The translations under genes and the position numbers were made by a program. From an uncultured Eubacteriales bacterium (GTDB lineage: Bacteria > Bacillota > Clostridia > Peptostreptococcales > Anaerovoracaceae), in contig ONRQ01000009.1 in NCBI GenBank assembly GCA_900320285.1, positions 1 through 56,416 of the forward strand: a stretch of DNA of 56,416 nt. Direction: 5' to 3'. This document shows positions 27,148-44,801 of this stretch, piece by piece. The notes beneath the pieces are model-generated. The model was not told the DNA's origin. It saw only the letters and a program-made list of their open reading frames with translations, and made no database searches. Every line of letters starts with the position of its first letter. The first letter of the stretch is position 1.

Positions 27148-27189
27148 ATCTGCCGTTCAATCCTTATGTTTTTGGAGAGGGAGATCGTT

Positions 27190-27948: not shown

Positions 27949-27949
27949 C

Positions 27950-28417
27950 ATGATGGAACTCTCCCCTAGTCTCGCGGTTCAGCTCATATCGTGTACAGCC
28001 GCCTGTGTGGGTTTTGCCTACTGGTTTAATGTAAAAGGCATTCAGGTAATGTATGCAGGCATCGGCGCATTCTTCACCTGGCTTGCATATGCACTGCTGT
28101 ACAACGCCGGATACAGCAATTTCCTTGCAACACTTGTAGGGTCAATATTTGTAGCCGCCTATGCCCAGGTAATGGCCAGAGTAAACAAAGCGCCTGCAAC
28201 CATATTCCAGACAATATGCGTTTTCCCGCTTGTGCCGGGGCCAAATCTGTATTACATGATGTACTGCATAGTAATGGAAGAACATGAAATGGCAGTGTCA
28301 GAAGCGATCACTCTTGTTGTTACCTGTCTGGGAATCGCTCTCGGCTTCATCGTTGTCGAGATCCTGAACAAGTACATATTCAGACCAACCATAAGAAGCA
28401 TAAAAGAAAAAGGATAG
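27950..28417 (+). CDS. Threonine/serine exporter family protein, small ThrE_2-type subunit
   Basis: 155 residues with four hydrophobic spans and the conserved RVNKAPATIFQTICVFPLVPG segment of the DUF3815/ThrE_2 family. It starts 1 bp after the stop of its partner, with AAGGGGG at 27935-27940, so translation is coupled. Two adjacent ATGs exist; the first is used here. The stop codon lies inside the terminator hairpin. Confidence 0.88.
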   Translation: MMELSPSLAVQLISCTAACVGFAYWFNVKGIQVMYAGIGAFFTWLAYALLYNAGYSNFLATLVGSIFVAAYAQVMARVNKAPATIFQTICVFPLVPGPNLYYMMYCIVMEEHEMAVSEAITLVVTCLGIALGFIVVEILNKYIFRPTIRSIKEKG

Positions 28418-28434
28418 CCGGCAAGGCTATCCTT
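28410..28434. terminator. Bidirectional terminator overlapping two stop codons
   Basis: Arms AAGGATAGCC (28410-28419) and GGCTATCCTT (28425-28434) with a 5-nt loop. The exporter stop codon lies in the left arm and the convergent regulator gene's stop begins at the end of the right arm. Confidence 0.85.
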
Positions 28435-30617: not shown

Positions 30618-30640
30618 TCGTTATCCCCCTTGTTCCTGCG

Positions 30641-30667
30641 AATTGTTATTAATAAAAGTTAACAATT
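30641..30667. promoter_or_regulatory. Inverted repeat, candidate operator for the MocR-type regulator
   Basis: Perfect 8-bp arms AATTGTTA (30641-30648) and TAACAATT (30660-30667), centres 19 bp apart, in the leader between the regulator's predicted promoter and its start codon. A second symmetric element, GATTTCA-AA-TGAAATC (30600-30615), covers the regulator's start codon. Position suggests autoregulation. Confidence 0.45.
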
Positions 30668-30696
30668 GAGCATTTCTGAAATCACAGTTTAAGGCT

Positions 30697-30725
30697 ATTA
30701 TATTGCATATAAATACAGTGGTCAA
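30697..30725 (-). promoter_or_regulatory. Regulator gene promoter (TTGACC-17-TATAAT)
   Basis: On the minus strand TTGACC (complement of 30720-30725) and a perfect TATAAT (complement of 30697-30702) are spaced 17 bp. This is the best promoter in the intergenic region; I could not find an equally clear one for the divergent ECF gene. Confidence 0.7.
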
Positions 30726-30750
30726 GGCAGAACGGTCAAAGGAGGATATC

Positions 30751-31245
30751 ATGGGAAAGCATTCCACCGGAGTCAGCACAAACAAGCTCGTGTTTACTTC
30801 ACTAACAGCATGCCTGATTATGCTCGGTACACTCCTCTTCAGGATCCCAGTTCCGATGACTCAGGGCTATGTGCATCTTGGAGATGCGATGATCTATATA
30901 GGAGTTCTCCTTCTTGGCAGAAAGCATGGCTCTTTTGCTGCCGCCCTGGGATCTGCTATGGGCGACATCCTCGGAGGTTTTGCCTTCTGGGCGCCGTGGA
31001 GCTTCATCATTAAATATGCGATGGCGTTTGTTGCCGGCTCTCTGATAGAAAGAACATCCAGGATCATTTCAATGACAGCCGGCGGCCTTGTCATGTGTGC
31101 AGGATACCTGATAGCTGAACGAGTCATGTATGGAAGCTGGGCGCTGGCAGCAGTCGGCCTTCCATGGAACATCGGACAGTTTGCAGTAGGTATCGCAGTA
31201 GCATTGTCTGCTCAGCCATTATTCAGATTTATTCCTGAAAAATAA
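30751..31245 (+). CDS. ECF transporter S component
   Basis: 164 residues from the ATG at 30751, chosen because AAAGGAGG ends 7 nt upstream; an earlier ATG at 30703 lacks this and lies over the divergent promoter. Five or six membrane spans. The N-terminal NKLVFTSLTACLIMLGTLLF and GYVHLGDAMIYIGVLLLG are typical of ECF substrate-binding subunits, which pair with shared EcfA/EcfT energising units encoded elsewhere. The substrate is a vitamin or similar small molecule. Linkage to a MocR-family (PLP-sensing) regulator makes a vitamin B6 compound an attractive guess, but this is inference from context only. Confidence 0.82.
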   Translation: MGKHSTGVSTNKLVFTSLTACLIMLGTLLFRIPVPMTQGYVHLGDAMIYIGVLLLGRKHGSFAAALGSAMGDILGGFAFWAPWSFIIKYAMAFVAGSLIERTSRIISMTAGGLVMCAGYLIAERVMYGSWALAAVGLPWNIGQFAVGIAVALSAQPLFRFIPEK

Positions 31246-31312
31246 AGGTAATTTTCTGCCTGAATCGTGATAACATATTTATGCCATTTATTGTGTTTTG
31301 GGGAGAATAGAG

Positions 31313-31864
31313 ATGAGCCATACAGAGCAGATGAATATCCGTCTTGTAGTAGATGACGAGCAGGAACTTTATACGAGCTTCAGTCCGGAGGATGAACTGG
31401 ACGGATCGGTAAAAGCATACCTTAGGTCAAAAATTACAGCGAACAAATATAACAGTAATCTCCGGCTGACTGTCATCCCACGTAAACCGATGGATGAAGA
31501 AAAATTCCGGAGAGCTGTTTCATACTGGATCAAAGATGAAAAAGAATCGTTTAGTATAGAGGAAAAAAGCACTGTCCGCATGCTTATCGGGCTGTTGATT
31601 TTCGGCTCCATAATGATTCTTGCATGTCTTTCCCTTCAGAAGACTATCGATGTGCTTCAATATTCACTGATGCCGATATTGGGTTCTCTCTCTCTTTCCA
31701 GAGCTGCATCTATCCTGATCATAGACATGCCTACTATAAGGGCAAAACGATGGATACTCGGCTCAATGGAAAAACACAATGTGATAACATTTGAGTACGA
31801 CCAGGATAACAACAGCACTTCCGTTGAAGAAAACCAAAATAAAGATATACAGGTAGATGCATGA
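31313..31864 (+). CDS. Small membrane protein of unknown function, coupled to the GDPD gene
   Basis: 183 residues, not recognised. The first 90 residues are soluble and charged (QMNIRLVVDDEQELYTSF, then a basic/acidic stretch). A membrane span follows (MLIGLLIFGSIMILACLSL, about residues 92-110), then a second hydrophobic stretch (LMPILGSLSLSRAASILII) and a polar tail. The ATG at 31313 is preferred because GGGGAGA precedes it. The stop overlaps the ATG of the next gene by 4 bp (ATGA), so the two proteins are translationally coupled and probably act together at the membrane. Confidence 0.75.
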   Translation: MSHTEQMNIRLVVDDEQELYTSFSPEDELDGSVKAYLRSKITANKYNSNLRLTVIPRKPMDEEKFRRAVSYWIKDEKESFSIEEKSTVRMLIGLLIFGSIMILACLSLQKTIDVLQYSLMPILGSLSLSRAASILIIDMPTIRAKRWILGSMEKHNVITFEYDQDNNSTSVEENQNKDIQVDA

Positions 31865-33726
31865 ATAAAGCAATTGCCATTGTAAAAGACTGGTATAAAT
31901 CAATAGTTGAACCCTTTGAGCTGATAAAGGATAACTTCGGAAGCCTTGTTGGCTATGAGGTGTTATTCAGGGTTCTGGCTTTTTTTGTTTTGTTCCCTAT
32001 CATAGCGTGGACTGAAAAATTATTGCTCGCGGGGAACAAGACGAATGTCATTGCCTGGTACAATGTGGGATCATTTATCAGAAATCCTGTTTCATGGATC
32101 GTACTGATATTTATGATTGCAGTGCTTACCTGGGGAACAATGGTAGAACAGTTCTCGCTGTATGATGCAATGCATGCGTCAAAATCCGGCCTTAAAAGAT
32201 CTATAAAGCAGATAACTGCTGCCGGTTTCGAGCGGTGCTTTGAGCGTTATAAAGCCGGTAACTGGTTATTTATACCATATGTGTTACTGATACTTAGATT
32301 CGGGACCCTGACCGGCGACATATCCAGTGTTATTTCGGTTATTGAAATACCGGGTTTCATACTGGAGGATTTCGGTAAGCGCCCATGGGAAGGAATTGCA
32401 TTTGCCTGTTTTCAGGTAATCGCGATCTATCTTTTTCTTCGCTGGATCTACGCAGTCCCGGTCATGGTCGAAGAAGATGAAATAAGTTTCAGGGCAGCCT
32501 GCAGAAAAAGCGCATCCATGACAAGGGGAAAATATTTTATAAAGGTTCTCCTTTTCGTAGCAGAATGGAGTCTGCTTATCGTATTTTTCTATTATGCGGG
32601 AACTGCAGTGATCATAGCTGAATGGTATCTTCTGGCTTTATGGCTGATGCGCGGTGCAGTGGATCCGTTCAAGGTGTTTTTCACCGCACACTTCGTACCT
32701 GTCAGCCTGATTTTCTACCTTTTCATTCTTTGGATAGCAACACCGATTTTATTCGCGGCAATCCAATGTGCCTACTACAGGAGGAAAAATCAGCTGGGTG
32801 AAGAATCTCTTCAATATGTTGAGCCTCCACAGTACTTCCAAAAGTTCCACGTGTTGAAATGGTGGCTTATAGCTGTTTGTGCCATCAGTATATTTTTCTC
32901 CGGTCCGCAGAGATTTGAACAGATCAAATGGATGCTCAACACGGACTATGGAACAGCGATGATCATGGCGCACAGGGGGTATTCCGCTAAGGCTCCTGAA
33001 AATACCATACCTGCTTTTCAGAAATGTATTGATAACAGGTTTACTGCTGCAGAACTTGATGTACAGATGCTTGCTGACGGAACGATAGTCGTACTTCATG
33101 ACGACAATCTGAAGAGAACCACCGGTGTTGATAAAAATGTCTGGGAAGTCACTTATGATGAAATCAAGGATCTTGACAACGGATCATTCTTCGATGAGTC
33201 ATTTGCCGGGACCACGATACCGACTTTTGACGAGGTAATGAGGCTTGCGGGTCACGGTAAAGATAAACTTTATCTGAACATCGAGATCAAGCGCAACGGA
33301 CATGATGACGGGATCGTAGAAAAGGTCGTTGAGATCATCAGGAAAAACAACTATATGGATTACTGCGATGTGACGTCTCAGGATTATGAAACCCTCGAGG
33401 AAGTGCGTAAGGTCGATCCGGAGATCCTTACAGCTTACACATCAGCAATAGGTATAGGTGAGATTGATACACTCGATGCGGCAGATATCATCAGCATACA
33501 GGAGACATTCGCTACATATGAGAATATAGACCGTATCCATCGCGCCGGAAAGCGTGTTTTCGTATGGACCGTCAACGAGGAAGATACGATGAAAAGACTT
33601 GTAAGTCTGAATGTAGACGCGATTCTGACCAACGACCCTGCTCTCTGCAGATCAGTCATCGACCAGTATGATTCCAATATTATGAATATAGTGCAGAGAA
33701 TACATTCAGCATTTTCATTTTTATAA
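31861..33726 (+). CDS. Membrane-anchored glycerophosphodiester phosphodiesterase
   Basis: 621 residues. The N-terminal 360 residues hold about seven or eight membrane spans (the GPDPase_memb-type region), including VLFRVLAFFVLFPIIAWTEK and IVLIFMIAVLTWGTMV. The C-terminal 250 residues are a GDPD TIM barrel with the catalytic opening IMAHRGYSAKAPENT, the metal-binding ELDVQMLADG and the VVLHDDNLKRTTG motif. It should cleave glycerophosphodiesters to an alcohol and glycerol-3-phosphate at the membrane; in Gram-positives such enzymes may act on lipid or teichoic-acid products. Followed by a strong terminator and the left border of the integrated element. Confidence 0.92.
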   Translation: MNKAIAIVKDWYKSIVEPFELIKDNFGSLVGYEVLFRVLAFFVLFPIIAWTEKLLLAGNKTNVIAWYNVGSFIRNPVSWIVLIFMIAVLTWGTMVEQFSLYDAMHASKSGLKRSIKQITAAGFERCFERYKAGNWLFIPYVLLILRFGTLTGDISSVISVIEIPGFILEDFGKRPWEGIAFACFQVIAIYLFLRWIYAVPVMVEEDEISFRAACRKSASMTRGKYFIKVLLFVAEWSLLIVFFYYAGTAVIIAEWYLLALWLMRGAVDPFKVFFTAHFVPVSLIFYLFILWIATPILFAAIQCAYYRRKNQLGEESLQYVEPPQYFQKFHVLKWWLIAVCAISIFFSGPQRFEQIKWMLNTDYGTAMIMAHRGYSAKAPENTIPAFQKCIDNRFTAAELDVQMLADGTIVVLHDDNLKRTTGVDKNVWEVTYDEIKDLDNGSFFDESFAGTTIPTFDEVMRLAGHGKDKLYLNIEIKRNGHDDGIVEKVVEIIRKNNYMDYCDVTSQDYETLEEVRKVDPEILTAYTSAIGIGEIDTLDAADIISIQETFATYENIDRIHRAGKRVFVWTVNEEDTMKRLVSLNVDAILTNDPALCRSVIDQYDSNIMNIVQRIHSAFSFL

Positions 33727-33784
33727 CATATTAAAGGGTCTGTGATCCGGATTAATCCGCACTTTCACGACAGACATAATAAAG

Positions 33785-33811
33785 CCCCTGTAATCATTGA
33801 GATTACAGGGG
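33785..33811 (+). terminator. Terminator downstream of the GDPD gene
   Basis: Perfect 11-bp arms CCCCTGTAATC (33785-33795) and GATTACAGGGG (33801-33811) with a 5-nt loop, followed by TTTTCT. It lies just outside the element border. Confidence 0.9.
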
Positions 33812-33816
33812 TTTTC

Positions 33817-33839
33817 TGGCGGAGAGAGAGGGATTTGAA
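33817..33839. repeat. attL: 23-bp copy of the tRNA-Ser 3' end
   Basis: These 23 bases are identical to 44710-44732, the CCA end, discriminator, acceptor and T-arm part of the tRNA-Ser gene. The match stops sharply on both sides (33816/44709 and 33840/44733 differ). No tRNA continues here, so this is the displaced half-site left by integration. Confidence 0.9.
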
Positions 33840-33897
33840 GATTTCAGCAAGTCTGGAAACGTTGAAATTTCAGGAAAGGAGTGACGTCCCTCTTCCA

Positions 33898-33918
33898 GTG
33901 TATCCAGAAGTGTATCCA
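33898..33918. repeat. Left arm-type repeats (GTGTATCCA x2)
   Basis: GTGTATCCA occurs at 33898-33906 and 33910-33918, 12 bp apart. The same motif is repeated near the right end of the element (44573-44614). Candidate arm-type binding sites for the integrase. Confidence 0.6.
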
Positions 33919-33924
33919 AAACGA

Positions 33925-34491
33925 TTATTTACCGGCTTTTTTAATATCTTCTATATCAAGGAAAAACAAATCAATCCATGACAATAGTGTTTTTTCTCTG
34001 ATTTTTGCAGTACCATTGAGCTTTCCATTTTTCCAATTTTCAAATATGTATACCTTTGATTCTGTTATATCAAAACTTCCATGTGCAAATGCATTCCTTA
34101 TGCAGTAAAACAATCCCTCAGTATTAGAAACGTTGTTCTCGTTTTTTCTTATTATCAAATACTCAGAGTCTGGTTCATATGACACCAAATCTGACATATC
34201 CGTCACGGCTTTCAAAATAATATCCGTGTCTGCTACTCTTTTCATAGCTGCTCGGAAAGAATTAAGTGTTGCACCAGTTATACCCCTATCCTCAAACGAC
34301 TGCCCCCTGCAGCTTACTCGCTTAAAATGGTAGTTATACTTTGGATGAGGTTGTCCTTCAGTGTCTTCTATGTTTTCTTTACTCTTATTAACTCGATTAT
34401 ACGTTCTTACCGGACATTCAAATAAGTAAAATGTGATAATTGCTTGAAAGTTTTTACTGTTGAAAGGTATATCACTTTTATGCATCTTCAT
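33925..34491 (-). CDS. HEPN-motif protein, putative RNase/defence cargo
   Basis: 188 residues, family not firmly recognised. The C-terminal third has GLFYCIRNAFAHGSFDI, which contains RNxxxH (R-N-A-F-A-H), the R-x4-H catalytic motif with the polar residue after Arg seen in HEPN ribonucleases. The N-terminal half is not recognised. HEPN proteins are common as toxins or abortive-infection factors on mobile elements. No antitoxin partner is adjacent, so a toxin-antitoxin role is not shown. Two ATGs (34491 and 34485) follow GGAAGGAAG; the second has better spacing. The gene is AT-rich compared with the chromosome and is the outermost gene at the left border. Confidence 0.65.
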   Translation of the reverse strand: MKMHKSDIPFNSKNFQAIITFYLFECPVRTYNRVNKSKENIEDTEGQPHPKYNYHFKRVSCRGQSFEDRGITGATLNSFRAAMKRVADTDIILKAVTDMSDLVSYEPDSEYLIIRKNENNVSNTEGLFYCIRNAFAHGSFDITESKVYIFENWKNGKLNGTAKIREKTLLSWIDLFFLDIEDIKKAGK

Positions 34492-34608
34492 CTTCCTTCC
34501 ATTTCATATAAGCTATAGTATACGACTCTATTTGTTGCTTATGGTTGCCTGCTCTCAGGATTGAAATAATGGGCAAAAATCATCCAACAGTTCATTTGCA
34601 TGCTTAAA

Positions 34609-34636
34609 GCACTCTGCCTTTTTATAAGCAGAGTGC
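34609..34636 (-). terminator. Terminator downstream of the LRR protein gene
   Basis: Arms GCACTCTGC (34609-34617) and GCAGAGTGC (34628-34636) with a 10-nt loop, 13 bp after the stop on the minus strand; the T run is short (TTT). Confidence 0.65.
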
Positions 34637-34649
34637 CTAGTGTTACTCC

Positions 34650-37600
34650 TTATTTTGCCTTCACCTTCTTTATAGCAGACCACTTCGAAACATGTACTGC
34701 CCCACCAGATTTCTTGTAAGCTCTGATTCTTACATAGTATGTTTTCTTCGATGTAAGCTTTGTGATTTTCTTCGACGTAGCGTTCTTCTTTGCAGTAACA
34801 GTCTTTACACCAGTCTTGAAGGTCTTATCCATGCTGTATTGGATCTCAATCTTAGCAATCTTCTTCTGATTAGCTTTGCTGACCTTTTTCCACTTAACTG
34901 TTGCAGCTTTCTTTGCCGAAACAGGTTTGGAGATCTTTACTGAAGGTAGCGTTGGCTTCAGCATAGCAATAGCCTGTGTATCGCTATGACCACATACGCT
35001 GCATGTACATGTTTTCTGCCCATCAGCAACTTCGGTTGCTTCTTTTGTTGTTTTCCATGCACCGAAGGAGTGTGCTTTGATAGGAATCGCTTTTGATGAG
35101 CCTTCCTTAATGGCATCACATTTCGTGCAGTGAATAGACTCAGATCCTGCAGTTGTGCATGTAGCTTCTTTATCAACAGTGTACCTAGAATCCCAGATGT
35201 GAGTAATCGGTATTGATTCTTTAATTATCTTTCCACAATCACTACAGTGCTTCTCCTTCTCTCCTGTTTCTGTACAAGTTGGTTCTTTTGTTACAATCCA
35301 TTCACTATATTGATGTTTAACAATTGCAAAGGTCGTATTCTTAGTGCCTGTATAATCGCCCTTTAATTTAAGTGTGATTACATGTTTTCCGGCAGAGGTA
35401 CAATCAGATGGATATAAAATGTCATAAGACTCATTTCCTAACTCTTTACCACTGGAATCAATCACGGTTATTATTGGATAAACCGGCGATCCTGTGTAAT
35501 CATATTCGTCCTTATCAAGACGAATATACTTAATCTCATTTACTGACTCATTCTTTACACCATGACTTGTACAAATACTTGCAATATTATTATTATGTGT
35601 TTGTTCTTCAGTAGTGAGATTAATCTTATTCCGTTCTTTTTGTGCGTCATCAGCCTTCTCTTGATACTGTGCAGCAGATTTCAATTCAAGGTACATCTGA
35701 TAATCGGATTGAAGTTCTTTTATTTCTGCTTCAAGTTGTTTGATTTCTACTTGATGTCCACCTGCAGTATCTGCTCTAAGTGCCGCAAGCTGATTCTGCT
35801 TCTTTGTAATAGTGTTTTGTGTGCTTGTTGCTTGATTTGCATAATATGTGGATGATTGTAAATAGCTAACTCCATACTTATTCTTAATTTTATCTGCCGT
35901 ATTTGTATAAAGCTCTATATTTGCATCCAAAGTTGATGCTCTAGATATAACAGCATTATGTCTGCTGTTTTCATCTGCTAAATCGTCTTCTAATGATTGA
36001 CCAACATATACTGCTGCAATTTCAACATTAGAAGCAGGCATAGTGAAAGAAATCGAATTTGCTTTTAAATCATTTTCAGATAATAATAATTCGCCAGATT
36101 GTATCCTCCATTTTGAGAAGCTTCTATATGCAACATCATTTACATCTTGTATCGAAACATTATCGTTCTCAAAAAATCGTTTGCTAAATGATTTGTTATT
36201 TGTGTGATACGTTAATAAATACCCCAGTTCGTCTTGATTTATTGAAGGATCATTTTTAATAGTAAAGCTTTTTGTTAATAATCGTGTGCCTGTAAACAAT
36301 TCGCTCAACTTGATATCGACATATGCAGTACCTATATCAGTATTATCTCTATAGGCAAGAGTGTAATCCTCTCCCTCTGTGAGTTCATAATCACCAAGTA
36401 AAACTTTAACCGGCGGAGTAATTCTTCTTCCGGAATACGACTGATCAGGGATTGCTTCAACTGTAACGTTATCAGTGCTAGGACTTAGGATCTCGAACTC
36501 TTCAAATATGGAATCGTAGTATTTTCCTATTCCTGCAATTCTAATAGTAGCTGTTCCACGTTCTTTGTTATTATTATAAAAGAGATTGTAATCTATTCCT
36601 TCAGTCAGCTCCTTATTATCATCTTTAATTATTAAGTCAAGATATATATTATTGCCAGTATATGGTCTATCTTCGATTCCTGAAACAGATGCCATAGTAA
36701 TGCTCTTAATTAGTGACATATCACTTCTGTCGGCATTATAGGTTACATTGCATTTATCAGAAATAATAGAGCTCAAATCTAGCTTTTGGAAATCTGATGT
36801 ATTACCTTCATACCAAATTCTTTGAATACTATCGGGTATAACGGCGTTTTGAGAAAAAGCCGTAATACTGCGTGGGATGAATAATTTGTCCAAATTCGTA
36901 AAGCGATGTAACACATTATCTGAAATAACACTAATATTATCCGGAATAATCGCAACAGAAGTATCTGGATCTAAACAATTAATATAACTGAGCAGTTCTC
37001 TTGAAACATCAGTCAAGAATTCTTTCGGCGATGACGGACTTATTCCGGGATTTCCTTCACATACAACTGAATTAGTATAACCAGAAAATGAATAACTAGT
37101 AACATTTGTAACACTTTTAGGAACGTAGATTTCTTTTAAGTTACTACAACCTGAAAAGGCCGCGTCCCCGATTGTAGTTACTCCATTTGGTATATTAAAT
37201 GACACGAGGCTAGTGCAATTATAAAAAGCATACCCATCGATTTTACTTAGTGATTCAGGAAGGAGAACCTCTTTTAAGTTGGAACAACCATAAAATGCAT
37301 AACTTTCGATCGTTGTATACGATTCTGGAAGAGTAATTGACTCGATTGTTGTATTATCCCTAAACTTTCCGTACAGTTTTGTAACGCCTGTTGGTACAAT
37401 AACAGACTTCTCATTGTCTATATTTTTGCAACCAAATTGATAATCCTCTAAAGAAGCTCCATAATTGACTGGTACTGAATAACCTGAGGAATTGTATCCT
37501 CCTTGTGATATGCGATTCCATTCACTTCCCCATGATCCAGGTTTGTTCTCTTCACCACAAAACAAGACTTTAACAGAAGAACATCCATTAAATGGGGACA

Positions 37601-38546
37601 TCCTCACACCGTTTACCACCTGACCATTATATGTGCTCTGATACTTTTCACCGCCTTGAACATACGCTATTCCTTTACACAAATATACATTTGTTAATTT
37701 ATAGCAATCTTTAAAAGATGCTTCATAAATCTTCGTAATGCTCCCCGGAAGAACTAAGTCAGTAAAACCACATCTACTAAATGTATAGCTTTCTAAAACT
37801 CCTATCTTTTCAAATGGGAACTCAGTTAAAGATGAACATCCGTAAAATGCATATGTTCCAACAGAATAGTTGCTGGACTCTGATAAATCATGAAAGCCCT
37901 CTAGTTTTGAACATCCGTAGAATGCATATGTTCCTATAGTGTTTAAAGCCTCACTTCTATTTATGACACTGTTCATTTCGGTGCAGTTATAAAAAGCTCT
38001 GCTTCCAATTTTTGTTATCCCAGTAGAAAGAATCAGTGATTTTATATCCTTTCTATTGTAGAACGGAGAATTGCTACCTGTATAATCATACATATTTCCA
38101 GATCCAGAAATAGTTAAATTTCCTTCAGAATCCAATTCCCAGCTTAGATTGTTACCAACTGTACCGGAATCCACAATTTCTGCTAAATCCGAATCCTGAA
38201 AGCCATCTTCAGGTGCATCCATATCTTTATTAATAAAATCGCTAGATTCAGGCAGGTCAGAATTAGATTCATCCATCGAAGTGTTTGTAGCTTCCTTGCC
38301 ACCATCCATATCTTGGCTCACGTCAGAATCATATTCTAAAGAATCACCCTCTTCCACATGTGCGTCATCTTCGTACACTTCATCAGCGTAGCTATCTTCA
38401 TAATAGTTCTCATCATTTACTGTATCATTATTAGTAACCTCTTGTTGTAAGCTTGTTTCCCCCAATTCATTCGCAAATACAAAACTTTGAGAATATGTAA
38501 TAGTAATCATTAGAACAAGTAATAAACTTGACAATTTCTTAAGCAT
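34650..38546 (-). CDS. Secreted leucine-rich-repeat (BspA-like) surface protein
   Basis: 1298 residues. Signal peptide at 1-26 (LLLVLMITITYSQSFVFA), then a very acidic segment to about 110. BspA/LRR_5 repeats run from about 130 to 590 (repeating patterns such as SRAFYNCTEM and TYAFYGCSKLEG). Two Ig-like modules with YTGN/YSGR openings follow at about 615-790, and a coiled coil at about 860-1005. Three CxxC-bearing repeats (EPTCTETGEKEKHCSDCG) occupy about 1085-1190, and a fibronectin-III-like domain the last 100 residues. There is no LPxTG motif or C-terminal helix, so wall attachment is unclear. Start has GGAGGGAG upstream. AT-rich, clearly unlike its chromosomal neighbours; adhesin cargo of the element. 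Confidence 0.9.
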   Translation of the reverse strand: MLKKLSSLLLVLMITITYSQSFVFANELGETSLQQEVTNNDTVNDENYYEDSYADEVYEDDAHVEEGDSLEYDSDVSQDMDGGKEATNTSMDESNSDLPESSDFINKDMDAPEDGFQDSDLAEIVDSGTVGNNLSWELDSEGNLTISGSGNMYDYTGSNSPFYNRKDIKSLILSTGITKIGSRAFYNCTEMNSVINRSEALNTIGTYAFYGCSKLEGFHDLSESSNYSVGTYAFYGCSSLTEFPFEKIGVLESYTFSRCGFTDLVLPGSITKIYEASFKDCYKLTNVYLCKGIAYVQGGEKYQSTYNGQVVNGVRMSPFNGCSSVKVLFCGEENKPGSWGSEWNRISQGGYNSSGYSVPVNYGASLEDYQFGCKNIDNEKSVIVPTGVTKLYGKFRDNTTIESITLPESYTTIESYAFYGCSNLKEVLLPESLSKIDGYAFYNCTSLVSFNIPNGVTTIGDAAFSGCSNLKEIYVPKSVTNVTSYSFSGYTNSVVCEGNPGISPSSPKEFLTDVSRELLSYINCLDPDTSVAIIPDNISVISDNVLHRFTNLDKLFIPRSITAFSQNAVIPDSIQRIWYEGNTSDFQKLDLSSIISDKCNVTYNADRSDMSLIKSITMASVSGIEDRPYTGNNIYLDLIIKDDNKELTEGIDYNLFYNNNKERGTATIRIAGIGKYYDSIFEEFEILSPSTDNVTVEAIPDQSYSGRRITPPVKVLLGDYELTEGEDYTLAYRDNTDIGTAYVDIKLSELFTGTRLLTKSFTIKNDPSINQDELGYLLTYHTNNKSFSKRFFENDNVSIQDVNDVAYRSFSKWRIQSGELLLSENDLKANSISFTMPASNVEIAAVYVGQSLEDDLADENSRHNAVISRASTLDANIELYTNTADKIKNKYGVSYLQSSTYYANQATSTQNTITKKQNQLAALRADTAGGHQVEIKQLEAEIKELQSDYQMYLELKSAAQYQEKADDAQKERNKINLTTEEQTHNNNIASICTSHGVKNESVNEIKYIRLDKDEYDYTGSPVYPIITVIDSSGKELGNESYDILYPSDCTSAGKHVITLKLKGDYTGTKNTTFAIVKHQYSEWIVTKEPTCTETGEKEKHCSDCGKIIKESIPITHIWDSRYTVDKEATCTTAGSESIHCTKCDAIKEGSSKAIPIKAHSFGAWKTTKEATEVADGQKTCTCSVCGHSDTQAIAMLKPTLPSVKISKPVSAKKAATVKWKKVSKANQKKIAKIEIQYSMDKTFKTGVKTVTAKKNATSKKITKLTSKKTYYVRIRAYKKSGGAVHVSKWSAIKKVKAK

Positions 38547-38577
38547 AGATGTGTTCTCCCTCCGTAGCGCGTGACTC

Positions 38578-38721
38578 CTATATATACCTCGTGAGCCATC
38601 TGTTTATAGTACTAACAGACAAATTGAACTTATAAGCACGTTTCTTCAAAGTGCGTTTCTCATCAAAATGAATTCTACCAATAATAACTCTTTCAAACTC
38701 TATAAATACCTTCCTTTTCAT
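38578..38721 (-). CDS. Small helix-turn-helix ORF, possible transposase remnant
   Basis: 47 codons, not in the usual size range for gene callers. The product starts MKRKVFIEFERVIIGRIHF and ends with KKRAYKFNLSVSTINRWLT, a helix-turn-helix like the N-terminal DNA-binding segment of IS-type transposases. The stop falls straight after the helix-turn-helix and no catalytic domain follows. No clear ribosome site. It may be a decayed insertion-sequence fragment or a tiny regulator upstream of the LRR gene. Confidence 0.35.
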   Translation of the reverse strand: MKRKVFIEFERVIIGRIHFDEKRTLKKRAYKFNLSVSTINRWLTRYI

Positions 38722-39325
38722 CTCGCATTCTAAGTAAAATAGTAACATTATTTTAATAAAAAAACTTAAACAAAACTATTCCAAAAACAAAAAAACATGG
38801 CAGGCCATAACAACCTGTCCCAGACTTAAGTGTTCTTAAGACTCCATCGACAGTAAATGATTGCTTAGCAAATATGTATAGGAATAATTCCTCTATAGCA
38901 TTATCGTTAATTATTAGAGTGATACTATAAATCATGTCTTTATACCGGCAGAGAAATCTATTTCGAGAATATTGAATCTTTTAGGAATAAATTGGCTATA
39001 GCATTGTCGTTATTAAGTAGATGAAAAGCTATGGTTCACAGCACAGTGCTAAGCGAACACCTTTTTTGAAATAGTTCATAATTGTTGGAACAATTCAGCG
39101 TATCTTTTGCCGATTAATAATAGAGAGATAATTATATCTGAATTCAGCTTCATAGCTGGTGCAAGGTATCGCGTTCTCCCTTTAACCATTTTTATCGCGT
39201 TACAGCGAAGAAAAACGTCTATTTTCGCCCCGGGATCATACATTTTCTCTCGGCTAGGTGGACGTTATTTTGTTGCAAGTTATTTTTTTATGAAGACATC
39301 GTAATGAAGATCGGAGGTGATGTGT
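38722..39325. other. AT-rich intergenic region inside the element
   Basis: About 600 bases without a convincing gene; short open frames here lack ribosome sites and recognisable content. It contains a symmetric AATTGTT-GG-AACAATT (39080-39095) and two ATCGCGTT copies about 30 bp apart near 39170-39200. It probably holds the promoter and operator region of the plus-strand mobilization genes, though I could not fix a convincing promoter. Confidence 0.5.
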
Positions 39326-39502
39326 ATGCCCAGGATGTCAAAGAAAGATAAGCAAGAATGGGACTTCTATCTCGATGAGAATGGCAGGATCAGTTACAAC
39401 GAGCTCTGCAGAAATTGTGATCGCGAGTGTAAGCAGAGCTTCCGTGCCGTAATCATTTCATGTCCCGAGTACAATTCCAAGAGGAGGAAGAAGAAAGAAT
39501 GA
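39326..39502 (+). CDS. Small Cys-rich, basic protein upstream of the relaxase
   Basis: 58 residues from the ATG at 39326, chosen for GGAGGTGA at 39313-39320. The sequence has CRNCDRECKQSF followed by a later Cys (IISCPEY) and a basic tail (KRRKKKE), a possible zinc-binding, nucleic-acid-binding mini-protein. Function unknown. Its position just before the oriT-like region and relaxase suggests an accessory mobilization or regulatory role. Confidence 0.6.
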   Translation: MPRMSKKDKQEWDFYLDENGRISYNELCRNCDRECKQSFRAVIISCPEYNSKRRKKKE

Positions 39503-39734
39503 GAATTATTTTTCACGCAGGAGCACCGCCGCTGGCTCCATTTTTATTTAAGCGGCGTCGGAAACGAGATGAGATCAAGTCCCGGTCAGGGCGTGATCTC
39601 CGTGAGCATTCATGCGAACGAAGAGGAGTAACTCAGGTGGCTACACCGTGGATGCTCCTCTTTTTCGTTTCCACAGGGAGTCAAGGGGGGAAAGCCTTGC
39701 CCACGACATCTTTGCAGCGAAGCTGAAAGTGTCA

Positions 39735-39773
39735 TAGTGGGTTACACACATTCAGCAGGAATGTTGTGTAACC
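39735..39773 (+). other. Candidate origin of transfer (MobV type)
   Basis: TAGTGGG-TTACAC at 39735-39747 resembles the TAGTGTG/TTA nick region of pMV158-type MobV origins as I recall it. An inverted repeat (left arm 39740-39753, right arm 39759-39773, one bulged base) overlaps it. It ends 25 bp before the relaxase ATG. The 39503-39797 interval holds no convincing gene. Confidence 0.5.
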
Positions 39774-39797
39774 GGCTTCGCCCCAGGAGGAATGCGT

Positions 39798-41069
39798 ATG
39801 GCAGTAAAGAAGCCGGACATGTCCTGCGCGAGAGTTGTGCAGTATAAGTCCTCAGGACTGGATAAGATCTACAGGCACAACGAGCGCAGGAACCAGAGCT
39901 ACGGCAATGAGAACGTTATAACTGAGATGAGCAGGTACAACATACACTTCAAGGATCCGGGTGATGAGACTTACACAGAGATATTCATGAGGCTCGAGGC
40001 CGAGGGAGTGATCTCCACCAGAGGTCTCCGTGAGGATGCCACCCTGCTCGATGAGATCATCATCGATGTCAACACGACATACTTTGAAGATCACGGAGGG
40101 TATGAGTATGCGAAGAAGTTTTATGAGGAAGCATATCACTTCATAGAGAAGAAGTTCGGAGCGGACAACATAGTCTCCGCAGTCATGCATGCCGATGAGC
40201 TGAACACAGAGGCAAGCGAGAGATTCGGTAAAGATGTGTACCACTATCACCTTCACGCAATGGTGATTCCTGTCGTGGACAAGGAGGTCAGATGGAGCAA
40301 GAGGTGCAAGGATCCTGAGCTGAGAGGGACGGTGAAGGAAGTGATCCATCAGGTGAGCCACTCAAAGAAGTGGGCATCCAATATCCCGGAGACTGATGAG
40401 CATGGTGAAGTCATACTTAGAGCCAACGGCAAGCCGAAGTACAGAAAGTCCTACAGCATACTGCAGGATGAAGTGTATGAGCACATGATCAGTCATGGCT
40501 TCACAGGCTTTGAACGCGGAGAGAAAGGCAGCACTGCTGAGCATCTTGATACTCTTCAGTTCAAGATCGAGAAGGACAAGGAGAGACTTTCCGAAATAGA
40601 GGGTCGCATTGAGCAGACCAGGCTGCAGTATGAGCCGGCACTTGACGCAAAGACAAGGTATGAAGATATAGACAGCCTTGGGAAGAAGAACATCACAGGC
40701 AAGGTCGTGCTCTCCGGTGAAGACTATGAAGAACTCACCTCTCTTGCCAAGGAAGGTCTGACGAGCAGGACAAGGCTGTGGGATATGCAAAGGACTGTTG
40801 AGTACTACAGAGATGGCTTCGAGAGATACAGTACTCGGTATGAGAATCTCAGCAAGAAGTATGAAGAACTTACCGAGAAGACGAAGCCTTTCCTGGATGC
40901 CATGGAGCACTTCCCTGAGCTGGTCACAGCATTCGTGAACAAACTGAAAGATCTCTTCAGGGACAAGGCTGCAAGAGAACAGGCCGAAAGAGAAAGACAG
41001 ATTGCCGAGCGTGAAAAAAAGCGTGCTGAACGCCTGCTGAAGAATAAAACTCGCGGGATCGAGCGATAG
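39798..41069 (+). CDS. MobV/Pre-type plasmid mobilization relaxase
   Basis: 423 residues from the ATG at 39798, chosen because AGGAGG lies 7 nt upstream (an ATG at 39792 is too close). The N-terminal half is the relaxase: SCARVVQYKSSGLDKIYRHNERRN, and the metal-binding motif with HADEL and YHYHLHAMVIPVV (about residues 133-160), matching the HxDE...HxH pattern of MobV. The C-terminal half is a long coiled coil (about 245-420), typical of Pre/Mob proteins. It should nick the oriT candidate just upstream and lead the strand into a recipient using another element's secretion channel. Confidence 0.88.
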   Translation: MAVKKPDMSCARVVQYKSSGLDKIYRHNERRNQSYGNENVITEMSRYNIHFKDPGDETYTEIFMRLEAEGVISTRGLREDATLLDEIIIDVNTTYFEDHGGYEYAKKFYEEAYHFIEKKFGADNIVSAVMHADELNTEASERFGKDVYHYHLHAMVIPVVDKEVRWSKRCKDPELRGTVKEVIHQVSHSKKWASNIPETDEHGEVILRANGKPKYRKSYSILQDEVYEHMISHGFTGFERGEKGSTAEHLDTLQFKIEKDKERLSEIEGRIEQTRLQYEPALDAKTRYEDIDSLGKKNITGKVVLSGEDYEELTSLAKEGLTSRTRLWDMQRTVEYYRDGFERYSTRYENLSKKYEELTEKTKPFLDAMEHFPELVTAFVNKLKDLFRDKAAREQAERERQIAEREKKRAERLLKNKTRGIER

Positions 41070-41182
41070 AGGGCGTTTATTTACCCTCTGTCATTCTTCG
41101 GGCAGTTTCCCTATTGCATTGTAAGATTCTTCATATATAATCATAATCGAACAGTTGTTCTTTAATATTTGGAGAAATCACC

Positions 41183-42178
41183 ATGCAGACAGCACAGGCA
41201 CAACAGGCAATTAAGCCTATCATCAGAGCCAATCCATTGAATGATCTGCTGGACAGCGAAACTGAGCGCAATGCTCTCGGGCTGTCCCGCATTGGCTTGC
41301 GACAGCGTGATGGCAGTGTCAGAGAGCTAAGGAATTCTATACTGCTCCCTGCCTATTACCTGATACCAGAGGAGATCATGAAGAAGTGCGGACAGGAGCT
41401 CTATTCTCTGCCCCGTTTCTTCAGTCTGCTCATGCTTGACCAGAATGCGATAGATACCATGGAAAGCGATCTGTTCGTGCTGTGCATAATTGACTGCTAT
41501 GCATATATGGTCTGGCCTTATCTGTGTCCGGATATTCCGTATATGGAGATCTTCTCAGGAGATGAACCCTCATGGAGGATCGCACATGCTGCGGGGATCT
41601 GGATCACAGAGCTATACAGGCTTGATAAGATCCCGACACTCAGAGAGTATTCAGCGAATCCGTATGCTTTTATCCCATATGCACCGCCTGAAGTTCTGGA
41701 CAGCATACTGTCTGAGATCGTACCAAGCGCAGTAAAGCGATATAATCTGCAGCCAATCATAGACGCAGCAAAAGAAACAAGGTGCTTTGAGGACTTTGAT
41801 TTCAGAAAAAGCCGGCAGAAGATAGACTTCTACCGCAAGTGGTACCACACAAGATCAAAGAAAGCTGAGTTCTCACTTGAGGGATATAAGGAACATTTGA
41901 TGGAGGTTTATGACGATGATGGATGGGAAGTCCCTGATCCTGTCAGTGATTTTGAAGATGAGGTCATAGAAAACGTAGATGTACAGAGATTCCTGTCAAC
42001 ACTGCCTGAAAAAGACAAGACTATACTGCAGATGCGGCAGGATGGTTATACTTTGCAGGAGATCGCAGATAAGCTTGATTACAAGACTCACAGCGCTGTT
42101 CTCAAGCGCATAAAAAGCATCGGCAGGAAATATGAAAAATACTCCGGCCTCAGCTTCGGTTTTAAGCGACTGCCTTAA
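41183..42178 (+). CDS. Element-encoded protein with a C-terminal sigma-region-4-like HTH
   Basis: 331 residues. The N-terminal 255 residues are not recognised. The C-terminal 60 (FLSTLPEKDKTILQMRQDGY, then TLQEIADKLDYKTHSAVLKRI) read as a sigma-70 region-4/ECF-like helix-turn-helix. It lacks a recognisable region 2, so it is more likely a regulator or a replication or recombination accessory than a complete sigma factor. The start has GGAGA at 41172. It lies between the relaxase and the AAA ATPase and is followed by a strong hairpin. Confidence 0.65.
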   Translation: MQTAQAQQAIKPIIRANPLNDLLDSETERNALGLSRIGLRQRDGSVRELRNSILLPAYYLIPEEIMKKCGQELYSLPRFFSLLMLDQNAIDTMESDLFVLCIIDCYAYMVWPYLCPDIPYMEIFSGDEPSWRIAHAAGIWITELYRLDKIPTLREYSANPYAFIPYAPPEVLDSILSEIVPSAVKRYNLQPIIDAAKETRCFEDFDFRKSRQKIDFYRKWYHTRSKKAEFSLEGYKEHLMEVYDDDGWEVPDPVSDFEDEVIENVDVQRFLSTLPEKDKTILQMRQDGYTLQEIADKLDYKTHSAVLKRIKSIGRKYEKYSGLSFGFKRLP

Positions 42179-42205
42179 CAAACAACTTTATACGTTATTA
42201 CTCAC

Positions 42206-42222
42206 GCTCCCCTCGCGGGAGC
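42206..42222 (+). terminator. Terminator after the sigma-like gene
   Basis: Arms GCTCCC (42206-42211) and GGGAGC (42217-42222) with a 5-nt loop, followed by TTTTTT. It separates the gene from the ATPase-integrase pair. Confidence 0.82.
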
Positions 42223-42257
42223 TTTTTTAATGGAAAATTTTTAATGGAGGAAACACA

Positions 42258-43277
42258 ATGTATAAACCTTTAGAACTAGTAGACGCACAGGAGCTATTGC
42301 TTACACCGCTTGATGTACCGCCGTTCCTTGTCGAGGATATAGTCCCTGGCGGCGTGAACATAATCGCAGGTGATGAGAAGTCCGGCAAGAGCTGGCTGAT
42401 GCTGCTCCTTGCTGTATGCATCGCTACAGGACAGGACTTTCTTGGTCATCATGTTGACCAGGGCAAGGTCCTGTACCTCAGCCTTGAAGATACCTTCTCA
42501 CGCCTTCAGCAGAGGCTGTTCAAACTCACAGATGAAGTCGGATTCGGCAACATCCTGCTGGGTATCCAGAGCGGTACTCTTGATTCTGATCTGATAGAGC
42601 AGCTTGACGATGCAGTGTCCAGAATAGAAGGTCTCAAGATCATCATCATTGATACGCTGCAGCTTATCCGAGGGGATAACACGACCTTGAGCTATGCCGC
42701 AGATTATGCTGATGTTGCAAAGCTCAAGAACTTCGGAAGAGAGCACAATGTCTCATTCTTCCTTGTGCACCACCTTAAGAAGCAGATTGAAGCCCACAAC
42801 ATATTCAACCGGTTCAATGGTACTAAAGGCATCAATGGCGCTGTAGATACCATGTTCCTTCTTGATAAGGAGAGTGAGTTCAGCACCAGAGCATCTCTCT
42901 ATGTCAAAGGCCGCGATACACAGCCCGTTGAATTGCAGATGGAATTCAATGATTGTAAATGGGAGCTTCTGAACATCAGGACTCAGGAAGAGATCGCTGC
43001 TGCCAACACACCTGAGATCATACACAAACTAGTTGATTTCATAAGAGAAAGAAGATCCTGGAGAGGTTCAGCTACTGAATTGCTTAATGAGCTTGGTGAT
43101 CAGTCGGTCGGCACCAATGTCATCACAAAATATGTCAATCAGTACAAGAGCAGCCTCTTACTGGACGAAGGGATAGCATACAGCTACAGCAGGACACATG
43201 CTGATGGCAGGATACTGTCCTTCGAAATATGTGACAGCTGTGACGGCTGTGACAGCAAGGAGGACAACTCCCGCTAA
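42258..43277 (+). CDS. RepA-like AAA ATPase (AAA_25 family)
   Basis: 339 residues. The P-loop GDEKSGKSW (about residues 39-47), the LYLSLEDTFSRLQQRL segment and the Walker B strand LKIIIIDTLQLIRG (about 130) mark a RecA-fold helicase/ATPase of the RepA/AAA_25 type. These occur beside integrases in phages and integrative elements, where they probably act in replication or recombination of the excised circle. The C-terminal 80 residues look like a winged helix (SATELLNELGDQSVGTNVIT). The last codons encode a CDSCDGCDS string that comes from 9-bp DNA repeats. Start is supported by GGAGG at 42246. Confidence 0.82.
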   Translation: MYKPLELVDAQELLLTPLDVPPFLVEDIVPGGVNIIAGDEKSGKSWLMLLLAVCIATGQDFLGHHVDQGKVLYLSLEDTFSRLQQRLFKLTDEVGFGNILLGIQSGTLDSDLIEQLDDAVSRIEGLKIIIIDTLQLIRGDNTTLSYAADYADVAKLKNFGREHNVSFFLVHHLKKQIEAHNIFNRFNGTKGINGAVDTMFLLDKESEFSTRASLYVKGRDTQPVELQMEFNDCKWELLNIRTQEEIAAANTPEIIHKLVDFIRERRSWRGSATELLNELGDQSVGTNVITKYVNQYKSSLLLDEGIAYSYSRTHADGRILSFEICDSCDGCDSKEDNSR

Positions 43278-43295
43278 CACTGTCACGGCTGTCAC
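43230..43295. repeat. Iteron-like 9-bp repeats forming a large inverted repeat at the ATPase-integrase junction
   Basis: Three tandem copies of TGTGACRGC (43230-43238, 43239-43247, 43248-43256) are followed by two inverted copies (about 43278-43295). In RNA, 43240-43255 can pair with 43280-43295 over 16 bp with two G-U wobbles. The 24-nt loop contains AGGAGG, which can itself pair with CTCC. It spans the ATPase stop and lies just upstream of the integrase start. Confidence 0.8.
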
Positions 43296-43317
43296 GACCG
43301 ACACGCATCTCTCTGAG

Positions 43318-44556
43318 ATGCATTTCACTTCGGACGAAATCTTGTCGTATATCTCCCAAAATGGTAACATCGACCTGAGGGACGTCGAAAACGATATGAG
43401 AAAGTCCAGAAAGGAGAAGATCCTAGAAAAACATCCATACACAATTTATCAAGGCAAAGATGGCAGATGGCGTTCTCACCTGCCTGATGAGAGCAAGAAA
43501 GAAGGTCGCAGGCTCATAGTAAAGTCAAACAGAGATGATCTGGTTGATATGATATGTGAGCATTATATCTCGAATGACAAGGATCTTGCCAAAGAAGCAT
43601 GCACTCTCGAAGATCTGTATCCACTATGGATAGAATACAAGAGATTGCATGTAGTCGAGTCAACAGTCATACGAGTCCAGAAAGACTGGAACAGATACTA
43701 CAAAGACTCCCCTATCATCAAAAGACCTATCACAAAGCTTACTAAGCTTGAGCTCGACACTTGGGTCCATGAGATGATCCGGAAGTACAATATGGGGAAT
43801 CACCAGTATGGCAACTTCTCTCTGATAATCCGTCAGATGCTGGAGTTTGCAGTCGACTCAGAGATCGTTAAATCAAATGAGTTTCTGAAGGTCAAAGTAG
43901 ACAAGAAAAGAGTGCTGACACCCGAGCGTAAAAAAGCCGATCACACTCAAGTATTCAACAAGATTGAAGAGCAGCAGATAATCAGGCATGCATGGGATGT
44001 ATATGAAAGCGGACGCAACTACGTCCAGCGCTTTGTCCCCCTCGGCATAGTATTCATGTTTTACACAGGTCTGAGAGTAAGCGAGTTATCTGCTTTGAAA
44101 TTCAGTGACGTTGATGGCAACACCCTAACTGTTCAGCGTATGCTCAGGTATTCCACTGGTGAAGTAATAGACGGCACCAAGGGAACCTTCGGAGACAGAC
44201 AGGTGCCTCTGACTCCTGATGCTAAAGCAATTATTTCTGAGATCAGGGCAAAAAGAGAAGAACTTGAAATGGGAACTGACGGATATATCTTCTGTCCTCA
44301 TGAAAAGCCTCTCAACACCTATACTGCGATCCAGAAGGCTATCACTACCTACTGCAGGGAGCTTGAAATAGAAGAGAAGAGCATCCACAAAGTCAGGAAG
44401 ACTATGATCTCAGCTATGATCGATGGAGGACTCAATCTTAATACTTCAAGGCAGATCGCCGGCCATATGGATGAAAAAACTACTTTAAACAATTATTATT
44501 TCGACAGAAGTGATGAGGTTGAGAAGTATAACAACTTCGTAAGAGCACTAGCCTGA
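43318..44556 (+). CDS. int: Tyrosine recombinase (integrase) of the element
   Basis: 412 residues from the ATG at 43318 (MHFTSDEILSYI). An open frame extends back to 43198, but its codons come from the 9-bp repeats (TAVTAVTA), so the later start is preferred; its ribosome site is weak. The N-terminal arm-binding part includes YTIYQGKDGRWRSHLPDESK, and a SAM-like core-binding domain follows. The catalytic residues are in place: Arg in FYTGLRVSEL (about 251), H-x-x-R in HKVRKT (about 357), His in AGHMDEKTT and the nucleophile Tyr in LNNYYF (about 393). It should recombine the 23-bp att site in tRNA-Ser. No separate excisionase was recognised. Confidence 0.92.
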   Translation: MHFTSDEILSYISQNGNIDLRDVENDMRKSRKEKILEKHPYTIYQGKDGRWRSHLPDESKKEGRRLIVKSNRDDLVDMICEHYISNDKDLAKEACTLEDLYPLWIEYKRLHVVESTVIRVQKDWNRYYKDSPIIKRPITKLTKLELDTWVHEMIRKYNMGNHQYGNFSLIIRQMLEFAVDSEIVKSNEFLKVKVDKKRVLTPERKKADHTQVFNKIEEQQIIRHAWDVYESGRNYVQRFVPLGIVFMFYTGLRVSELSALKFSDVDGNTLTVQRMLRYSTGEVIDGTKGTFGDRQVPLTPDAKAIISEIRAKREELEMGTDGYIFCPHEKPLNTYTAIQKAITTYCRELEIEEKSIHKVRKTMISAMIDGGLNLNTSRQIAGHMDEKTTLNNYYFDRSDEVEKYNNFVRALA

Positions 44557-44572
44557 TCACAAATTACCGCAG

Positions 44573-44614
44573 GTGTATCCAGAAACGTCTGAGTGTATCC
44601 AGATTCTGGATACA
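44573..44614. repeat. Right arm-type repeats (GTGTATCCAGA x2 plus inverted copy)
   Basis: GTGTATCCAGA occurs at 44573-44583 and 44593-44603, and its inverse TTCTGGATACA at 44604-44614, making a near-palindrome at 44594-44614. The same core occurs twice near the left att site. Confidence 0.65.
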
Positions 44615-44709
44615 TCTGCACAGCCAAAATTCTTATTCCACAAATCTTTCAAATCCAGTCTTTTCAACCCTTACAAAGCAAAAGAGCCGTTCATTGAACG
44701 ACTCTCGGT

Positions 44710-44732
44710 TGGCGGAGAGAGAGGGATTTGAA
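44710..44732. repeat. attR: 23-bp att repeat within tRNA-Ser
   Basis: Identical to 33817-33839. It covers the CCA end, the acceptor strand and part of the T-arm, so integration regenerates a complete tRNA gene. Confidence 0.9.
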
Positions 44733-44801
44733 CCCTCGCGCCGGTACTACCGACCTACTGGTATTCGAAGCCAGACCCTTCAGCCACTTGGGTATCTCTC
44801 C
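44710..44801 (-). tRNA. tRNA-Ser (anticodon CGA)
   Basis: 92 nt including an encoded CCA. Acceptor GGAGAGA pairs with TCTCTCC, with discriminator G73, the serine identity base. The D-stem is CCC/GGG and the anticodon loop TTCGAAT gives CGA (reads UCG). A long variable arm (class II) and the T-arm GAGGGTTCAAATCCCTC follow. One C-A mismatch sits at the base of the anticodon loop (31-39). Its 3' end is the attachment site of the adjacent integrated element, and its 23 terminal bases are duplicated at 33817-33839. Confidence 0.93.

Follow-up and report, generated by a model that had tools for sequence, protein, structure and literature searches.

The window analysed here, the 56,416-base contig ONRQ01000009.1 of an uncultured Eubacteriales bacterium, carries a 10.9-kb element inserted at the 3′ end of a tRNA-Ser(CGA) gene, which was read as an integrative and mobilizable element (IME) with a probability of about 0.88. 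Two exact 23-bp direct repeats enclose it, the right copy being the 3′ end of the one intact tRNA-Ser(CGA) detected by ARAGORN. With up to three mismatches allowed, the repeat occurred at these two places only in the window, and none of 100 dinucleotide shuffles held two copies. A 61-base query over the left copy also found only these two places in the bacterium's own 2.02-Mb genome (E 0.001). The borders and the backbone consist of the following features:

33817..33839, plus strand: attL, a 23-bp copy of the tRNA-Ser 3′ end (exact repeat)
44710..44732, plus strand: attR, within the tRNA gene (exact repeat, ARAGORN)
44710..44801, minus strand: intact tRNA-Ser(CGA), the target gene (ARAGORN)
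43198..44556, plus strand: tyrosine integrase (int) with R293, H397xxR400, H423 and a C-terminal YY (Phage_integrase, PHROGs, tree)
42258..43277, plus strand: AAA_25 (RepA/DnaB-like) ATPase, its 3′ end overlapping int (Pfam, PHROGs)
41183..42178, plus strand: 331-aa protein with a sigma-region-4-like helix-turn-helix (HTH), below cut-off
39792..41069, plus strand: mobV, a MOBV-type relaxase with HxxR at 29, HxDE at 133 and HYHLH at 151 (Pfam, NCBIfam, PDB match, tree)
39706..39784, plus strand: candidate origin of transfer (oriT), a 79-bp near-invariant non-coding island with two hairpins (conservation, DNA fold)
39317..39502, plus strand: 61-aa Cys-rich mini-protein, conserved among sister elements

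A first-pass annotation of this DNA, made from the letters alone, had proposed an IME with precise borders. Its repeats at both ends and intact tRNA at one were confirmed by the above results, and its tyrosine integrase beside the tRNA by a Phage_integrase match above cut-off (59.1 bits against 27.1, Pfam). The stop codon of int lies 153 bp from the right repeat, and an integrase gene near an att repeat is in its usual place. The sigma-region-4-like protein of that annotation did find matches, all of them below cut-off (23.3 against 25.7 bits and 27.8 against 42.9). No type IV secretion family was matched among the nine element ORFs scanned with Pfam, in agreement with the absence of secretion genes claimed earlier, and because the element is without transfer genes its mobilization would depend on a helper; the coupling-protein family PF02534 was counted four times across the bacterium's own genome. 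By this gene content the element is an IME, while excision, nicking, transfer, the helper and the functions of all the proteins are inferred.

The insertion itself was evident from relatives. The tRNA-locus comparison comprised 20 loci from 18 genomes, mostly picked by a tRNA-locus search. In six loci (L056–L060 and L062), the right-flank genes and orthologues of window positions 27166–31245 lay on opposite sides of the tRNA, no match to the window integrase was found between these flanks, and the repeat was present as a single copy at up to three mismatches. Because relatives hold the tRNA between the same flanks, without the integrase and with one repeat copy, the element is an insertion. 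Two congeners were strictly empty, with 603 bp (L056) and 448 bp (L057) from the tRNA to the left-flank orthologues, so that the empty tRNA-Ser site for which the first-pass annotation had advised a search does exist and supports the precise borders. The other four loci had gaps of 1.5–2.9 kb that contain other ORFs. That annotation had also named the repeat in strains lacking the integrase as evidence against insertion. Literally, such cases occur: G007 and G029 (assemblies 82% and 77% complete) carry a left arm with the repeat and no integrase match. Since the strictly empty L056 and L057 hold a single repeat copy, these two left arms were taken for products of decay that do not speak against insertion, which was upheld.

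Between the conserved left flank (end 31245) and attL lie two genes, 31298–31864 and 31861–33726, the latter scoring as a glycerophosphodiester phosphodiesterase. The pair was rejected as part of the element, as it stands outside the repeat and 7 of the 24 other places matching the left arm begin exactly at 33817 (the others between 33776 and 33856); it is a further left-flank difference, separate from the insertion.

The backbone was found again in the genus sample of 47 genomes, 12 of which held 14 full-length MobV copies of 79–100% identity, the window's included. A truncated copy was present in G019 besides, and with distant matches counted in (E 0.001) the number rose to 21 of the 47. The order Cys mini-protein, mobV, region-4-like gene, AAA_25 gene and int was repeated in six loci (L129–L132, L143 and L145). 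The tRNA adjoining int was tRNA-Ala(CGC) in L129, L131 and L145, tRNA-Ser(GGA) in L130, and tRNA-Thr(CGT) in L143 and L148; none was found beside int in L132, L144, L146 and L147. The cargo of the sister elements differed as well: a Na/Pi cotransporter with a two-component system in L131 (in L066 the ORFs are similar in size and in their order, unaligned), a BspA-type leucine-rich repeat (LRR) protein in L130, methyltransferase, zinc-finger and HTH proteins in L129, and IS110, MerR and a PDC-S06-like gene split into two ORFs in L132. These results supported the gene set named in the first-pass annotation (integrase, RepA-like ATPase, region-4-like protein, Cys mini-protein and MobV). Because cargo differs among sister elements, they also bore out its expectation of the same backbone with different cargo, here beside other tRNAs.

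The relaxase matched Mob_Pre (PF01076) with 144.3 bits (cut-off 25.5, Pfam). Motif I (HxxR) and motif III (HxDE..HxH) are present, the HxDE–HxH gap being longer than in the published HxDExxPHUH, and RYNIHF was read by eye, without an alignment, where motif II (NYD/EL) is expected. Because the NCBIfam MobV model NF041497 gave 69.7 bits against a cut-off of 100, the protein is MOBV-like in the wide sense and not the NF041497 equivalog; the MobV-type relaxase of the first-pass annotation thus stood by Mob_Pre and not by the NCBIfam model.

Upstream of mobV, a 79-bp island was nearly invariant: among 12 elements, 2 of its 79 columns varied, whereas mobV varied in 482 of 1236 and its longest stretch with at most two variable columns measured 29. 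The alignment contained 12 of the 14 full-length mobV copies, the other two beginning less than 120 bp from a contig end. The DNA fold of the island reached a z of −5.35, and the first of its two hairpins extends to 39733, 8 nt upstream of GTGGG/TT, with the predicted nick between 39741 and 39742. In the parts of the sources drawn on here, the nick is GTGTG/TT in pMV158 and GTGCG/TT in IMESag-rpsI (PMC5090054), and IR1 of pMV158 lies 8 nt before the nick (PMC5863519). The core pattern of the island, at up to three mismatches, occurred in 4 of the 247 genomes of the family sample, which also served for the HEPN search below; all four have a MobV match, one of them truncated. By its conservation and MOBV-oriT shape, the island is a candidate oriT. 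An 88-aa ORF at 39460–39726 was rejected as a gene, since it runs into the sequence rich in hairpins ahead of mobV and indels occur in the homologous stretches.

Furthermore, the two halves of the backbone had different closest relatives. Window positions 43066–44733, that is, integrase, right arm, hairpin and repeat, were 94% identical to G039:C55 and G026:C29. In these two MOBP-type loci of sister genomes a MobA/VirD2-type relaxase lies upstream of int instead of MobV (G039 also has a NikA-like protein), no more of the AAA_25 gene than its 3′ end is kept beside int, and the right ends adjoin the arm of another element, not the tRNA. Positions 43066–44763 were 95% identical to G046, on a contig too short to reach the relaxase. 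On the left, 38982–43379 was 84% identical to a tRNA-Ser(GGA) element and 38998–43306 was 88% identical to a tRNA-Ala element. The two homologies meet in one short stretch:

43066..43306, no strand: module junction, where MobV-type homology (left) overlaps MOBP-locus homology (right; identity comparison)

In the trees, MobV of the window fell in a clade (support 100/99) with tRNA-Ala, tRNA-Ser(GGA) and unknown-site elements, and its integrase in a clade (support 100/99) with G046, G039 and G026; sister elements at other tRNAs carry other integrases. Integrases clustered mostly by target, with the exception of that of G017, which shares the window's target and falls outside the window clade. 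Judged by these identities and trees, the window element is a mosaic, apparently formed by module exchange. Beyond this single case, we lean, with reservations, towards a general route: IMEs of the genus would swap whole integrases with their attachment ends across relaxase classes, by crossover at the AAA_25 3′ end (43066–43306) and with the MobV type as donor, the mobilization module thereby gaining new tRNA targets and each end coming with its own tRNA terminator. The MobV type is suggested as donor because the MOBP loci keep only an AAA_25 3′ scrap beside int; alternatively, this stretch simply holds the int promoter. Separately, the MOBP relaxase region of L055 (11866–13257) was seen to consist of two ORFs of 260 and 186 aa, the second running to the contig end. 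Module exchange among streptococcal IMEs is already described in the parts of PMC5357655 drawn on here, and IME module exchange also in section 5 of PMC5704250; new in this analysis are the near-invariant island upstream of mobV and the mosaic.

The left part of the element contains the cargo, together with a small ORF:

33925..34491, minus strand: 188-aa protein with a HEPN-type R-x4-H (R132, H137), cargo
34650..38546, minus strand: 1298-aa secreted-looking protein with BspA-type LRR (LRR_5) and fn3, cargo (Pfam)
38578..38748, minus strand: 56-aa HTH-like ORF upstream of the LRR gene (weak matches under cut-off)

G+C content was 34–38% across 34–39 kb, the cargo half, against 44–50% across 39–45 kb, the backbone. 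The LRR protein scored 202.3 bits with LRR_5 (cut-off 27.7, Pfam) and has a signal-like N-terminus; no LPXTG-type anchor was seen by eye and PADLOC gave no match. On these features an adhesin is plausible. In the HEPN-motif protein, R132 and H137 (motif sequence RNAFAH) were kept in all four aligned sequences, namely the window and three relatives, two of them pieces, the residue after R, polar in the HEPN motif, being C in one of the four. No Pfam, NCBIfam, PADLOC or PHROGs model matched the protein, the PDB search returned only a chance-level match (FliE, E 0.93), and 24 pattern matches in viral contigs included no relative. Relatives were found in 4 of the 247 family genomes. Two of the relatives stand within type I restriction operons. 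The one in G131 overlaps hsdM at its end and is followed by hsdS (hsdM by Pfam, hsdS by eye); that in G204 abuts hsdR with hsdS and hsdM close by (one hsdS by Pfam, the rest by eye). G035 has a 50–53% relative at a distance of about 0.7 kb from a stretch that matches the left arm. Restriction operons in which a HEPN protein is embedded have been described (PMC3710099, as far as the parts drawn on here report). A putative RNase with a defence role, as the first-pass annotation proposed for the cargo, is plausible. Additionally, L177 (6082–16197) and L178 (5996–14658) contain type I restriction operons with at least two hsdS-like genes, a tyrosine recombinase and a HEPN relative (partly by eye), a combination in which specificity switching plus an RNase is possible.

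Next to the repeats, four further features were recognized:

33840..33917, plus strand: left arm, whose two GTGTATCC boxes (at 33898 and 33910) are probable arm sites of the integrase
44573..44619, plus strand: right arm with GTGTATCC boxes at 44573 and 44593, plus an inverted copy
33782..33816, minus strand: hairpin and A/T tracts immediately beyond attL, probably the tRNA's original terminator (sequence)
44680..44707, minus strand: element-borne hairpin with a T-run, 3 nt past the tRNA 3′ end (fold z only −1.5)

Of the five GTGTATCC boxes in the window, four are no more than 140 bp away from the repeats and are probably integrase arm sites. A 55-nt fold of the hairpin outside attL gave −20.9 kcal/mol, without a shuffle control. 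A hairpin was predicted shortly 3′ of tRNA-Ser in all 23 loci, with differing sequences, and reached a z of −2 in 18 of them (simple shuffles). Judged by these folds, the element seems to come with a tRNA terminator of its own, the probable original one now lying outside attL.

Other arrangements of the same left arm were also observed. L124 (3531–10982) and L123 (2532–9985) have two left-arm repeat copies 7.4 kb apart without an integrase match between them; in L124 the enclosed ORFs match an ABC sugar-type transporter and GH77, and in L123 they are of similar size. This repeat-flanked unit is possibly a passive one moved in cis. In L127 (6787–6809 and 11303–11325) the repeat of the left arm has the opposite orientation to the copy in the tRNA, through either inversion or misassembly. 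Another element with the same left arm occupies the same tRNA in L061 (5978–12953, genome G010), with an Abi_2 protein, an integrase that does not match the window's, and a 359-aa ORF resembling the C-terminal part of the window LRR protein; this element was possibly left by a deletion between tandem elements.

Three other explanations were weighed. It is unlikely that the region is a decayed, immobile island from a former IME, with its borders still visible and excision and transfer lost. Decayed kin do occur at this tRNA, such as G019 with MobV residues 1–145 and a 30-residue integrase end, and the orphan left arms in G038:C4 and G012:C37; in the window, however, all the backbone ORFs are full length with their catalytic motifs kept, both arms are present and the oriT island shows no change. 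The region could instead be satellite-like or derived from a phage, and be packaged by a helper phage, not mobilized by conjugation; in favour of this, PHROGs placed the integrase in an integrase family and the AAA_25 protein in DnaB/primase families. The relaxase and the oriT-like island, the lack of a PHROGs match for MobV, and the absence of structural and packaging families from the PHROGs and Pfam matches of the scanned proteins make this very improbable. The source genome is metagenome-assembled, and a 23-bp tRNA repeat could mislead an assembly into joining unrelated contigs. Such an artefact is hardly credible, as L056 and L057 have the genes of both flanks in one continuous stretch around the empty tRNA, the same right end is fused to the same tRNA in G046, G038 and G019, and the left arm begins at 33817 in the seven places mentioned.

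Several points weigh against the IME reading and its parts. No excisionase was identified in the element, so the 'complete' element of the first-pass annotation calls for a caveat, and the circle and its transfer are predictions from assembled genomes. The host is a metagenome-assembled genome (2.02 Mb, 78.6% complete, 88 contigs, the window being contig C28), and the family sample of 247 genomes includes 9 of the 47 congeneric ones. To these are added the NF041497 score of the relaxase, under its cut-off; the L058 locus, which is not pristine, as a degenerate sequence resembling the repeat lies some 110 bp away from its tRNA; and the counterpart of 31861–33726, which lies on a contig other than that of the tRNA in five full-match relatives (L118–L122). 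Among the five hairpins short of a z of −2, four come from loci whose right end is of the window type (window, L053, L065 and L066), and in the integrase tree the long branches of G020, G044 and the G017 tRNA-Ser integrase are of unsure placement.

As an IME, the element would be moved by its tyrosine integrase, which would recombine the 23-bp tRNA 3′ end with the identical sequence on the excised circle. Insertion would leave the tRNA gene intact and probably set the element's own terminator behind it. MobV would nick the 79-bp oriT island, an unrelated co-resident conjugative element would provide the coupling protein and the mating pore, and the AAA_25 ATPase and the region-4-like protein would probably act in replication or in control once the element is excised. 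Exchangeable cargo would make up the left half, here a putative HEPN RNase and an LRR protein that is either secreted or at the surface.

Records with MobV of at least 79% identity came from sheep and goat gut metagenome-assembled genomes (Mogibacterium sp., family Anaerovoracaceae) and from RUG isolates (uncultured Clostridiales), RUG presumably standing for rumen; the relatives of the host would accordingly be ruminant-gut species. A literature search for integrative mobilizable elements of rumen Mogibacterium gave nothing, and no wider claim of their being unreported is made. For a gut lineage that has been little studied, this is a mobile element with clear borders, empty sites, sister copies and a candidate oriT, which opens its excision and mobilization to direct tests. 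In the mosaic, module swap by recombination, a route proposed for IME evolution, can be seen with a narrow breakpoint. The tRNA-Ser(CGA) site emerges as a common insertion point at which genes for surface proteins, transporters and putative defence turn over.

Among known systems, a survey restricted to streptococci found, in the parts drawn on here, MobV with a tyrosine integrase only alongside MobT (PMC5357655); the window element has an AAA_25 gene and gave no Rep_trans match among its ORFs (Pfam). PrrC and ApeA-type HEPN RNases, which are linked to restriction operons, share R-x4-6-H with the cargo protein (PMC3710099, same parts as above), and relatives of the latter stand after hsdM or beside hsdR; in contrast, the window protein has 188 aa, is without the ABC ATPase part and stands alone in its element. 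Elsewhere, MobV of 55–65% identity over at least 259 residues was found in 20 of 34 genome-contig loci, but the gene context differs in L151, L154, L157 and L159, with AAA_25 matches of 21–23%, and all 213 plasmid records were under 60% MobV identity. IMESag-rpsI, a streptococcal IME of 9.1–9.5 kb with a MOBV1 relaxase, resembles the window element in size, in its Phage_integrase protein and Mob_Pre relaxase, and in oriT inverted repeats with a GTGNG/TT nick, both the oriT and the nick being predicted in our case. According to the parts of PMC5090054 drawn on here, it inserts at rpsI and has Rep_trans and RepA_N initiators and RelBE, whereas the window element targets tRNA-Ser(CGA) and carries the AAA_25 and region-4-like proteins. 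Finally, pMV158 is a non-integrative plasmid, and MobV of the window has a longer HxDE–HYHLH stretch than its MobM; nevertheless, the relaxase domain matched MobM (MOBV1; PDB 4lvi) over residues 12–137 (E 1.1e-11) with HxxR and HxDE aligned, and both have a hairpin 8 nt before the nick, that of the window being predicted.

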